This document shows positions 273-23,150 of a stretch of 47,681 bases of DNA, one piece after another. This stretch comes from Candidatus Nomurabacteria bacterium (lineage in GTDB: Bacteria; Patescibacteriota; Saccharimonadia; Saccharimonadales; Saccharimonadaceae), in assembly GCA_031266275.1 (NCBI GenBank), contig JAISBI010000013.1, forward strand, positions 1 through 47,681, given 5' to 3'. The first letter of the stretch is position 1. Each line of letters starts with the position of its first letter. The notes under the pieces were generated by a model, which was not told the DNA's origin, did no database searches, and worked only from the letters and a program-made list of their open reading frames with translations. Both the position numbers and the translations under genes were made by a program.

Positions 273-1382
273 ATGAAAAAAAGCACTAAAAACTCCAAAC
301 CCAATAAAGTTTCAAATAGAGCCCAACGAGAGAGAGAGAGAGAGAGAGAGAGAGTAGGTCTTGCGTCTCTGTTCTATTTAGCTAAACGTATAGGTAAGGT
401 ATTTAATAGTAAACAACAAGTTGCTTGGATTATTATATCTACCGTACTTATTTGTCTTACTTTTGTGGTGGGTTTTAGTATTGGTGGTAGTGTTAATAGT
501 GCTAGTCCTAGTGGGACTAGTATACCGGTGAAGAAAGGTGGCACTGGTGCTACTACACCAAGTGATGCTATACAAAATCTTTTGCCAGATTTTGCTAGTA
601 ATGCTGGCAAGGTGCTGGGTTCTACTGGTTCTGGGATTGGCTGGGTGGCGCAGACTGGCGGCGGTAATTCGGCTTATATGTTTCCTGATTATGCCAATCA
701 AGAAACGGCTAATCGGAATGAGACAAATAATGTAGCGTGGACGGTTGAAAATGACGGTTATGTTTATTGTAGAATGATGATGACATCAGCAAATGCGAGT
801 GCCAACGATGCGGCTATTTATATTAACGATAAAGCCGTTGCTAGAGGCAGTGCTAACGGGGCAAACCCTCAAAGAGTAAATCTGTTCGGCGTTTACCAAG
901 TTAGTAGTGGCGATAGAGTTCGTTTATGGTATAACGTTGGTCTTACTCAAACAGAACAGATGGGTTGTTGGTTCATTCCGCCCAAATATTCCACCCCGCC
1001 CACGCCGATTGTGGTGGAGGGCGGCGATTATAAAACTGCGGAGCAGGCGGTTATGGTGAATGACGGTGGCAATTTGCGACAGAAATTGTGGGTGGACGGT
1101 AAGCCGATTTATCAAAAGACAATCAATTATACTGTCGGCAACCTTGCTTCTGGCGGTGGTGTAAAGATAGGCGACATTTCTTTATTGTCAAGCGATTTAG
1201 ATAAAATGGTCAACGCCGAGTTTGTTAGTAATCAGTCGACTAATGTTGGCGTGGTAGGTTATTTTTCAATACATAATAATAACGGTGATTTGATGCTTTG
1301 GAATGGCTGGTTGGCTGCTTCGGTTGGTGTGCCTTTGACTATTACGGTTCAATATACAAAGACAACGGACACACCGCTATGA
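273..1382 (+). CDS. membrane-anchored surface protein with phage tail-fibre-like motifs and an in-frame GA tract
   Basis: The ATG at 273 is chosen because AAAGGA lies 8 nt upstream; an in-frame ATG at 243 has no ribosome site. The 369-aa protein starts with a basic, Ser/Lys-rich cytoplasmic tail containing alternating Arg-Glu residues encoded by a GA repeat (328-354). One transmembrane segment follows (about residues 53-75, IIISTVLICLTFVVGFSIGG), then a secreted region. The motif KKGGTGATTPSDAIQNL resembles the GGTGATT repeats of phage tail fibres. KLWVDGKPIYQKTIN resembles the 'W-x-DGKPIYRKT' motif of phage structural proteins. The rest is Gly/Asn/Thr-rich and probably beta-structured. I infer a type II-anchored surface adhesin or receptor-like protein. 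The target is unknown. Translation could be switched on and off by repeat slippage. Confidence 0.75.
   Translation: MKKSTKNSKPNKVSNRAQRERERERERVGLASLFYLAKRIGKVFNSKQQVAWIIISTVLICLTFVVGFSIGGSVNSASPSGTSIPVKKGGTGATTPSDAIQNLLPDFASNAGKVLGSTGSGIGWVAQTGGGNSAYMFPDYANQETANRNETNNVAWTVENDGYVYCRMMMTSANASANDAAIYINDKAVARGSANGANPQRVNLFGVYQVSSGDRVRLWYNVGLTQTEQMGCWFIPPKYSTPPTPIVVEGGDYKTAEQAVMVNDGGNLRQKLWVDGKPIYQKTINYTVGNLASGGGVKIGDISLLSSDLDKMVNAEFVSNQSTNVGVVGYFSIHNNNGDLMLWNGWLAASVGVPLTITVQYTKTTDTPL
328..354 (+). repeat. GA dinucleotide tract (13.5 units) inside a coding region
   Basis: Twenty-seven bases of uninterrupted GA encode alternating Arg and Glu immediately before the membrane anchor. A TAG abuts the tract in another frame. 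Adding one unit gives TAG at once; losing one unit gives TAA about eleven codons later. The present length is in frame. Such tracts are classical slipped-strand phase-variation sites. Confidence 0.9.
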
Positions 1383-19962: not shown

Positions 19963-21630
19963 ATGAAGTTTAGCGACTTGAAACAGACGACGAAACGGCG
20001 AAGTTCAACTCGGCAGTGGGTGGTTTTTGGCAGTTTAGCCGCAGTTTTGGTGGTTGGGCTGTGGATTTTGTGGTCGCCGGTGCAGGCGGAAACTAGACTG
20101 TCGCAGGATCCGGCAGTACGTGGTCTGACGGCCGGCGGAGCACATGCTTGTGCGATTTATAATCAAGCTGAAATTTTGTATTGCTGGGGGTTGAATGATC
20201 GAGGTCAGCTCGGCACGGACGATGCTCCACTCAATCATAGTCAGCCCGATACGGCAGTGGGCGGCTTGCTCACCGGCAAGAAAGCTTCAGCGGTGGCTGC
20301 TGGGTTTGCTCATACCTGCGCGGTGGCCGAGGGTGGAGTATATTGCTGGGGCGCCAACGATAAAGGTCAGCTCGGCAATGGAACTAGCATTGATAGTGAC
20401 GAGCCGGTTTTGGTCAATGGTTTGAGCGGGGTGACGGACATTTATGCGGGCTTCGCCACGACTTGCGCCAAAGCAGGTGATATTTATTGTTGGGGCGACA
20501 ATGACGAGGGACAGTTCGGCAACGGAATGACAACCCCAACCCCAATCGATATGCCACTGTTACTGACTGGGACTTCTGGCGTGGACGATCTGGCGATTGG
20601 CGTGGCGCACAGTTGCCGAGTGATTGGCGGAGCGGCGTCTTGTTCGGGCGCGGGCGCGAACGGCCAGCTGGGCGACGGCTCAGGCGATGATAGTTTGGTG
20701 CCGATTGCGGTAAGCGGAATTGATGGCGAAGTCACGTCGGTGTCAGTTGGCTTTTTCGGTAGTTGTGCGGTGACAAACTTGGGCAAGTTTTATTGTTGGG
20801 GCGACGATACGTCGGGACAAGTCGGCGTAGGCGCGGCCTTTACGGCGCGCCTGCTGAAAGACTACGGCTCGGTGGTACCGATTGCCAGTGGCTATGCGCA
20901 TAATTGCGCTGAATTTTATTGTATTGGGGAGAATGGCAGTGGTCAACTTGGCGACGGGACTGTTGTGAGCAACCCCGCGATGACGGCGGTGGACGACACG
21001 AGCGGTCTGCTGGACGGCTTGACAGCTAAGCAAATTGCGGCTGGCTTTGATTTTACTTGTTGGGTAGCGGGAAACGCGGACAGCCCTTTGCAAGACGCGG
21101 TGTTTTGCGCTGGCGAAGGGACTGATGGACAGCTCGGCGACGGTTTGTCGACTAATTCTTCGGTACCAGTAGCAGTAGATACTGATTTGGTCGAGAGAGA
21201 AGAAATCTATATAAGTTTGAGCGCCGACCTCGACCCAAACGAAATTAATTTATCAGTAACGCCAAATGGCAACCTGGCGGCCGGCTCCGTGAATTTGACA
21301 GTGATTACAAATAATAACAGTGGATACAACCTGTTAATCAAAGCTGGCTCGGCAGACTTGGAATGCCAGACTAATGCCAGTTGGAAAATTCCAGCGCAAA
21401 GCGTGAACGACACAGCGCTAGAAGTCAATCATTGGGGTTACGAAAAAGGCTCGGCCGAACCGACGACATGGAAAGGTGTCAATACCACCAACGCGTCGCT
21501 CGATGGGCTAGGTACAGCGACCTTTGCTGATGGGCACAGAACAGAAACTTGGTTCGGCGTGCGGGCGACGACTTTGCCGGCCTGCAATAGTTATACAGGA
21601 ATTGTGACTTTTTCGGCAGTTAAGATATAA
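19963..21630 (+). CDS. surface RCC1-repeat beta-propeller protein
   Basis: The 555-aa protein has a basic N-terminus and one membrane or signal segment (about 20-38, ending VQA). Six or seven RCC1 repeats follow, of the form H-x-C-A...YCWG-x-N-x-x-GQLG. Each repeat holds a cysteine pair, unusual for nuclear RCC1 but common in bacterial surface versions. The last 150 residues form another domain (TNNNSGYNLLIKA) that resembles the N-terminal module of the FISUMP proteins here. It is probably an exported binding protein. It is flanked by direct repeats that copy the end of the upstream gene, suggesting insertion. Confidence 0.85.
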   Translation: MKFSDLKQTTKRRSSTRQWVVFGSLAAVLVVGLWILWSPVQAETRLSQDPAVRGLTAGGAHACAIYNQAEILYCWGLNDRGQLGTDDAPLNHSQPDTAVGGLLTGKKASAVAAGFAHTCAVAEGGVYCWGANDKGQLGNGTSIDSDEPVLVNGLSGVTDIYAGFATTCAKAGDIYCWGDNDEGQFGNGMTTPTPIDMPLLLTGTSGVDDLAIGVAHSCRVIGGAASCSGAGANGQLGDGSGDDSLVPIAVSGIDGEVTSVSVGFFGSCAVTNLGKFYCWGDDTSGQVGVGAAFTARLLKDYGSVVPIASGYAHNCAEFYCIGENGSGQLGDGTVVSNPAMTAVDDTSGLLDGLTAKQIAAGFDFTCWVAGNADSPLQDAVFCAGEGTDGQLGDGLSTNSSVPVAVDTDLVEREEIYISLSADLDPNEINLSVTPNGNLAAGSVNLTVITNNNSGYNLLIKAGSADLECQTNASWKIPAQSVNDTALEVNHWGYEKGSAEPTTWKGVNTTNASLDGLGTATFADGHRTETWFGVRATTLPACNSYTGIVTFSAVKI

Positions 21631-21758: not shown

Positions 21759-23150
21759 ATGAAAAATGCAACGAGAGAGAGAGAGAGAGAGAGTAGCCCC
21801 CGGTCATTCGCTGACCTGATCGGCGGATCTAGGAAGGGCCTTTCAAACCTCCTCAAATCTCACCCTCGCACATTTGTCATCTCCGGAGCCGTCCTCGTCT
21901 TATCCTCGCTATTCCTTCTCAATTACAACCTCACTCATGCTGATTCCTCTGTCACCCTGACGGTAAATGGAGGTTCTAATAATGGTGGTGTTACCATAAC
22001 GGTGCCAAAGGGTGACAATAACTGTGCTACTTTTACCTTAGACACTATCACGACTACCAATAGCTCATTGGGTTATAACATTAAAGCCTACACCAAAACC
22101 AGTGATACTGGTATTACAATAAAGAAACAAGACAATACAGAACTACCAACTAATCCAAATGACCCAATAGAAATAATAAATACCACTACTATAACCACTA
22201 ACGATAAGAAGGCTACTGCTTACCAGGCTTGTGCGGATAGTAGCATTAGTGATGGGACGAAGACGGTTGAGGTGGCGTATATGATAGCGGAAAACCCAAC
22301 GCCTTGTGTCTCAGATCAACAATTCAAAGGCGACGTCGGCAATATGCAGAACATAGACACCTCAACCTGGGACCAAGGAGACACTGGCATAGCAGTAGAT
22401 ACACGTAACGATCAAAAATACTGCATCGGTAAACTAAAGGATGAGAAGACATGGATGTTAGACAATCTAAAGTTAGCGCTGACAGATGGTATGATATTGA
22501 CTTCGACAACTACAGACGTAACATCCAACAGGACGGTAACTTTTAGTTGGAACAATTTCATTCAAGGCGACGCTGGCCACGACGATAATTTCGTCACCAG
22601 TGGTTATCTAACAAGAAACGGCGATGATTCGACAACTGGCGCTAACTACAACGCCTGGCGCCAAGTAAATCCTAGCGACCCAAATATGCCCAATAGTGCT
22701 AACTGTAGAATTAACGATGGCAGTACCTACAACAGCAGCTCCAAGACCGGATGTGGCTATCTATATAACTTCTATACAGCAACCGCTAACACAACCAGCA
22801 ACGGCTCTATCTGTCCAGCCGGTTGGAAATTACCATCTGGAGAAAATACCAGTGGAGACTTTGGCATGCTAGACCTAGCCTATCAGCCAGGCGGCACAGG
22901 TAGTATTCATGGTCTTTCTGATCCCGATACTCAAATGCTGTGGCTGCCTGCTGGCGCTTGGAGAAACGCTTTTAGTGGCTACTACGACTCTGGCCTCAAC
23001 AATCAAGGTTCGACCGGTAACTATTTGTCTTCGTCAATTTATTCGGTATTCGACACTTATGTTGCAGATTTCGACAGCAACGGCGTTAACCCTGGTGTGG
23101 CTTACGGCCGTCGGAGCGGCGGATTTGCAATTCGCTGTTTAATTGGTTAA
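21759..23150 (+). CDS. FISUMP-domain surface protein with GA tract
   Basis: The 463-aa protein has a basic N-terminus with alternating Arg-Glu encoded by a GA tract. One membrane segment follows (about 46-62), then a beta module with TNSSLGYNIKAYTK, then a FISUMP domain (Fibrobacter succinogenes major paralogous family). Its hallmarks are KYCIGKLKDEKTWMLDNLK, CGYLYNFYTATA, ICPAGWKLPSG and a C-terminal GGFAIRCLIG. This fold is related to C-type-lectin-like domains. The C-terminal 58 residues differ from the two paralogues mainly at NNC codons. Codons 15-24 include a GTCATTCGCTG repeat unit also found outside genes. Role inferred as variable surface binding. Confidence 0.85.
   Translation: MKNATRERERESSPRSFADLIGGSRKGLSNLLKSHPRTFVISGAVLVLSSLFLLNYNLTHADSSVTLTVNGGSNNGGVTITVPKGDNNCATFTLDTITTTNSSLGYNIKAYTKTSDTGITIKKQDNTELPTNPNDPIEIINTTTITTNDKKATAYQACADSSISDGTKTVEVAYMIAENPTPCVSDQQFKGDVGNMQNIDTSTWDQGDTGIAVDTRNDQKYCIGKLKDEKTWMLDNLKLALTDGMILTSTTTDVTSNRTVTFSWNNFIQGDAGHDDNFVTSGYLTRNGDDSTTGANYNAWRQVNPSDPNMPNSANCRINDGSTYNSSSKTGCGYLYNFYTATANTTSNGSICPAGWKLPSGENTSGDFGMLDLAYQPGGTGSIHGLSDPDTQMLWLPAGAWRNAFSGYYDSGLNNQGSTGNYLSSSIYSVFDTYVADFDSNGVNPGVAYGRRSGGFAIRCLIG
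21773..21793 (+). repeat. GA dinucleotide tract (10.5 units) inside a coding region
   Basis: Twenty-one bases of GA follow the fourth codon and encode Arg-Glu. Loss of one unit puts TAG in frame directly after the tract; gain of one leads to TGA about eight codons on. The sequence context (ACGAGAG...AGTAG) matches the tract at 328-354. Confidence 0.9.
21803..21832 (+). repeat. GTCATTCGC repeat unit within coding sequence
   Basis: GTCATTCGC, seven other bases, then ATCGGCGGATCT. The same two blocks occur at 23161-23190 downstream of this gene and, more diverged, at 34396-34424. Here it encodes SFADLIGGS. Confidence 0.7.
22972..23147 (+). other. diversity-generating-type variable region candidate (FISUMP C)
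   Basis: This is the C-terminal FISUMP segment from AFSGYYDSGL to IRCLIG. Compared with the paralogues at 32662-32840 and 34434-34615, several aligned codons differ in the first two bases but keep a third-position C (for example AAC here, GGC and TTC there; AAC here, TTC and ACC there). That is the pattern left by adenine mutagenesis of AAC codons. Confidence 0.45.

Follow-up and report, generated by a model that had tools for sequence, protein, structure and literature searches.

The GA tract at positions 328–354 of the window (the whole 47,681-nt stretch of Candidatus Nomurabacteria DNA analysed here) very probably belongs to a phasome, a collection of slipped-strand contingency loci spread over the genome. 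This assignment is based on the anatomy of the tracts, the statistics of their reading frames and the selection acting on the genes that carry them, as read from sequence. From these we infer that slippage is the source of the length changes, that it switches the protein ON and OFF and that the switching has a biological role.

In each of the surface-protein genes concerned, a GA/CT dinucleotide run follows the translation start and precedes the membrane anchor. In the mechanism we propose, replication slippage, in a genome without MutS, would add or remove 2-bp units. One length in three would join the start to the body of the protein (ON), and with the other two translation would soon, after a few codons, meet a stop (OFF). 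A given cell would then display a random, heritable and reversible subset of about 20 surface proteins, which could plausibly serve as adhesins or decoys toward a host bacterium, phages or the animal gut.

The window locus

The first tract-bearing gene of the window (273–1382, + strand) encodes a predicted surface protein of family A, with 369 aa counted from ATG 273. An in-frame alternative, ATG 243 (ORF 243–1382), shares its frame with ATG 273 and gives 379 aa; the likelier start is ATG 273, which has the Shine–Dalgarno-like AAAGGACG ahead of it. A probable promoter on the same strand consists of TATACT at 222–227 and TTGGCT at 200–205, as suggested by their sequence, and the GTGCTATACT motif is found also 5′ of the paralogs on contigs C9 (two), C30 and C38. 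The tract itself, (GA)13G or 13.5 units on the + strand, begins 55 nt 3′ of ATG 273, is 27 nt long and 100% pure, and is read in frame as (RE)n, which places the gene in the ON state. The original prediction had read this run exactly.

Changing the tract length in silico reproduces the predicted consequences of gaining or losing one unit. At 27 nt the gene yields 369 aa; at 29 nt the repeat continues as ...RERE and meets a TAG directly, contributed by the flank TAGGTCTTG (355–363, + strand); at 25 nt the frame runs through ESRSCVSVLFS to a TAA, about 11 codons on. Lengths of 21 and 33 nt regain the frame. Paralogous tracts with the same flank measure 23, 25, 27, 29, 37 and 41 nt, and thus do not differ in 6-nt steps.

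A transmembrane anchor is predicted directly 3′ of the tract (408–479, + strand; body helix 18–41). It is followed by a segment that is invariant in comparisons across family A, PSGTSIPVKKGGTGATT...NLLPDF...GKVLG (510–620, + strand), which spans the stretch between the anchor and the variable head. The structural model of the body has a mean pLDDT of 57, with one N-terminal helix and a better-modelled region at residues ~110–210 (684–986, + strand), where a C1q/TNF-like jelly-roll head is predicted with pLDDT mostly between 64 and 82; this region differs between family A paralogs. The resemblance hints weakly that the head may be adhesin-like. A Pfam search with the window protein gave no match above the cut-off, and a PHROG tail fibre match (E=0.0011) was obtained for one paralog and none for the window protein. 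The description of the protein as phage-tail-like in the original prediction finds weak support in the PSGTSIPVKKGGTGATT motif, the match of one paralog (E=0.001) and the low-confidence jelly-roll model.

The window contains a second GA tract (21773–21793, + strand) of 10.5 units, 14 nt 3′ of ATG 21759, which is also in frame and hence ON. Its gene (21759–23150, + strand) encodes a predicted 463-aa surface protein of family B with a transmembrane segment and a weak Fib_succ_major match; a paralog at C30:5824 is OFF. Directly 5′ of this gene lies one for a membrane-anchored protein with RCC1 repeats (19963–21630). It is free of tracts, so the proposed switching does not extend to all surface genes.

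Distribution of tracts in the genome

The genome comprises 792,187 bp in 42 contigs, of which the window is contig C36, and is 92% complete. Pattern searches together with fetched stretches identified 23 GA/CT tracts of 19–41 nt in these 0.79 Mb, located on contigs C1 (2), C3, C4, C6, C9 (3), C12, C13 (2), C15, C19, C21, C26, C30 (3), C32, C35, C36 (2) and C38. The searches were run with different ends, and the 14-, 18- and 20-mer counts reconcile with the list of 23. The repeat unit of 2 nt is not a multiple of 3, and the runs are pure and far above chance length: from the dinucleotide frequencies of the window, the expected number of GA/CT runs of at least 27 nt is 2.5e-13 in the window and 4e-12 in the genome, and that of runs of at least 19 nt is about 8e-7 to 1e-6 in the genome. 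In the 128 kb examined for simple repeats, only GA/CT runs and one 14-nt CAG run exceeded the thresholds, and no homopolymer of at least 9 nt was present. The pattern is thus not one of general microsatellite growth.

Of the 23 tracts, the 22 that are readable in context all occupy the beginning of a long ORF and are followed at a short distance by a hydrophobic anchor. When the anchor was sought with an automatic KD scan, it was detected at 20 of the 23 tracts, the misses being contig-end or threshold cases. In 13 loci the GA strand is coding: a start with a Shine–Dalgarno-like site and a basic leader precede the (RE)n stretch, and a hydrophobic helix and a secreted-type body come after it. 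In the other 10 the CT strand is coding and (SL)n occupies the equivalent place; C32, whose contig ends inside the tract, is counted here by its leader. The tracts on C3, C4, C13, C19 and C26 had been considered as non-coding, a reading rejected on finding that their genes are on the CT strand. Start assignments rest on Shine–Dalgarno-like sites, some of them weak, mainly in the CT-type genes. Whichever strand codes, the base 5′ of the GA strand is C in 22 of 22 cases, and the three bases are AAC in 17 of 22. We considered AAC as a sign of a mobile cassette and set the idea aside, as most cases reflect shared descent.

The tract-bearing genes belong to at least five protein families, several of them unrelated. 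Family A, with its constant PSGTSIPVKKGGTGATT segment and variable heads, accounts for C36:328, two tracts each on C1, C9 and C30, and those on C38, C21 and C6 (the last via overlap with C8/C39). Family B comprises C36:21773 and C30:5824, and family C the tracts on C3, C4, C13 (two), C19, C26, C35 and C32. C9:34713 and C15 precede TIG-domain proteins, and C12 a SurA/rotamase-like protein, as judged from weak matches. The predicted transmembrane anchors, TIG and Fib_succ_major domains and jelly-roll-like heads suggest that these genes would function on the cell surface or in contacts with the host. With family A as query, a genome_contigs scan found no relatives that would permit a comparison between strains.

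Two family A loci are unusual. At C21:12363–12389 the tract is in frame, and an in-frame TGA replaces an otherwise invariant tryptophan (GIGWV) and limits the product to 112 aa. The leader of the C6 tract runs, by way of a 33-nt overlap, into a 119-nt stretch common to two different bodies, C8 and C39; the C6 end, C8 start and C39 end may represent a pair of paralogs, a mixture of two strains or a leader able to pass from one body to another.

Reading frames and selection

Calling the frame by hand from the start nearest to a good Shine–Dalgarno site gives 7 ON and 14 OFF for 21 of the 23 tracts (C15 and C32 left out). The in-frame loci are C36:328, C36:21773, C12, C21, C30:9981, C4 and C9:34713. 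A blind automatic rule gives 8 ON and 12 OFF, with the three phases represented 8, 5 and 7 times; in that run C4, whose contig ends soon after the tract, was taken on the wrong strand and is in frame either way. Both results fit one third in frame, as free slippage predicts.

The bodies of the OFF genes stay open for hundreds of codons unless the contig ends, the longest reaching 741 aa; a nonsense codon within the body is seen only in C21, whose tract is in frame. Nei–Gojobori dN/dS for pairs in which both paralogs are OFF is 0.13–0.24 in family C and 0.24–0.65 in family A. The family B pair has a value of 0.15. These figures are to be read with the high and rough dS in mind and with a paralog divergence that predates the current tract lengths. 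The OFF genes have thus been selected as proteins, and OFF cannot be a lasting state.

A search for MutS_V found none in this genome, nor in 99 of the 100 genomes covered, whereas the control set gives matches in 11 of 14. As tract-free relatives likewise lack MutS, its loss permits the tract pattern and does not cause it. Slippage switching of a membrane-anchored surface protein, as first proposed for position 328, is the explanation we favor, and it is backed far more strongly by the genome than by one locus: by the 23 tracts, the 7:14 frames, the intact and conserved bodies and the lack of MutS, and also by the same layout in related genera. The initial reading was correct and extends well beyond the one locus for which it was stated.

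Tracts in related genomes

The RNR gene of the window matches Saccharibacteria, with a best identity of 74%, and the closest records appear to be termite-gut MAGs, to judge the habitat from isolate codes such as Nt197, Th196, Pc512 and Gx485. The tract layout recurs in other relatives. One of these, G011, carries about 19 tracts that are built in the same way, with 6 ON and 7 OFF. Within one G011 protein family, whose members are 58–78% identical, L075, L078, L086, L094 and L095 have GA tracts and L096 has a CT tract; similarly, family C, which is CT-type, has a GA-type homolog in G106 and a CT-type one in G041 (JAISDN01, Gx485_bin132). Homologs with GA in some and CT in another indicate that tracts were gained, or leaders swapped, more than once, and recurrence at one functional place points to the switch, not the peptide, as the target of selection.

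Three further features of these genomes deserve mention. A SurA/rotamase-like membrane protein has a GA tract in both genera, ON here (C12:42875) and OFF in G011 (C20:20983), the two proteins being 26% identical over 332 aa (E 3.5e-21); it is possibly a secretion chaperone, in which case switching it could affect many exported proteins together. At G011:C39:10569–10612, two candidate ATGs in different frames, both with SD-like sites, precede the tract by 25 and 12 nt, so that protein could be made at two of every three tract lengths, a situation known from multi-start contingency genes. G106 (JAITKW01, Pcl387_bin78), a genome of roughly 0.5 Mb, has 13 or so tracts, if not more, with many of them where a contig ends, and would be a third phasome.

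GA runs of at least 18 nt occur in 14 of the 100 genomes used in the MutS_V search and in 41 of 379 across the phylum, mostly with few matches each. In the wider phylum sample most genomes have zero or one tract, and many tracts have no obvious membrane anchor downstream; an anchor was seen in 7 of 20, so it is in the family to which the window belongs that the pattern is most pronounced.

Assembly evidence and alternative explanations

All genomes considered are metagenome assemblies, in which stutter could give a dinucleotide tract the wrong length. Neighboring contigs that overlap by exactly 119 nt suggest k=119 de Bruijn assembly, and the closeness of several tracts to contig ends is due in part to exact 119-mers that paralogs have in common. 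Contig breaks near tracts were considered as proof of length mixtures and rejected as such for most, since exact 119-mers recur between the ends of C3 and C4 and between those of C8 and C39, which therefore break on repeats; the traceable breaks near tracts in the genome that contains the window are explained by common paralog sequence. Only one break fits a length fork. In G020 (JAITGI01, Pc512_bin123), a 23-nt CT tract forms the very end of contig C37, down to its last base, contig C40 overlaps C37 by exactly 119 nt and runs on past the tract, and the 96-nt leader has no other copy in that assembly. This is suggestive of a second, longer tract length in the reads, and loss of coverage or a filtered paralog could also produce the break.

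If stutter in assembly or PCR had corrupted the lengths, the true tracts might all be in frame, with (RE)n or (SL)n as constant parts of the proteins. Short-read assembly and the many tracts near contig ends lend this some plausibility, but tracts of 19–41 nt fit within a 119-nt k-mer, the in-frame share of one third (found again in the separate G011 assembly) is that of random phase and not of an in-frame majority, and GA in one homolog with CT in another would be odd for a constant protein element; we regard such an artefact as very unlikely. We give equally little credence to the idea that ribosomal or transcriptional slippage yields some full-length protein from out-of-frame genes, the tract tuning its level. 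Repeats can slip in transcription too, but the CT tract of Helicobacter pylori sabA has the same length distribution in cDNA and genomic clones (PMC2715451), and recoding alone would not account for the random phases.

Least probable of all is neutral microsatellite expansion in the absence of mismatch repair, with the out-of-frame genes as dying pseudogenes. A genome without MutS is where this might be expected, but the tract-free relatives are equally without it, the runs are of GA/CT only and sited at gene starts, and the bodies are intact (C21 excepted) with dN/dS far below 1.

Comparison with known systems

Repeat-based on/off switching is well known in pathogens, and babB, hopZ and oipA of H. 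pylori are CT-repeat phase-variable outer-membrane adhesins. Another such gene, sabA, belongs to a surface-adhesin family and has a CT tract in its 5′ coding part, with mixed lengths within strains (PMC2715451). The loci described here resemble sabA in having a 5′ coding dinucleotide tract in a paralogous surface family, where a change of one unit shifts the frame. They differ in phylum and envelope, in their longer tracts (19–41 nt) and in the use of one dinucleotide in several unrelated families on either strand, giving (RE)n and (SL)n; and whereas sabA lengths were seen mixed within strains, those reported here are assembled lengths. The tens of loci, surface-related genes and roughly random ON/OFF states recall the SSR phasomes of Campylobacter, Neisseria and Haemophilus, but those consist mainly of homopolymer or tetranucleotide tracts and this one of GA/CT only.

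The kind of mechanism is already known, and its occurrence in CPR bacteria appears to be new. As the original prediction had anticipated, no paper on phase variation in CPR bacteria was found in the literature searched, which covered few subscription papers. The nearest CPR case in that literature is a gracilibacterial surface gene with a hypervariable PTD 9-mer repeat (PMC6851277); the other matches were incidental. Like the proteins described here, it combines a CPR bacterium with a repeat in a surface protein that has one N-terminal TM, but its 9-nt unit keeps the frame and varies synonymously, and it is a single gene with no on/off switch. Dimeric (AG)n repeats have been reported in blood-borne Mycoplasma, Rhizobiales and Rickettsiales (PMC4516964). 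There, too, the same dinucleotide is enriched in small parasitic genomes, but those repeats are mostly very short (AG)3 runs and no switching of surface families was shown.

Biological implications

CPR bacteria live on other microbes, and host recognition, host change and phage evasion are at stake. If the tracts act as we propose, genome-wide ON/OFF switches would generate surface diversity at the level of the population with almost no regulatory genes, and a list of the tract-bearing genes would be predicted to reveal the host-contact proteins. We consider it reasonably likely that an episymbiotic CPR bacterium has here a phasome of its whole surface, built from one dinucleotide gained repeatedly on either strand, in which a minimal genome without MutS would vary about 20 proteins combinatorially, giving ~2^20 states, and each cell would test a different surface against host bacteria and phages.
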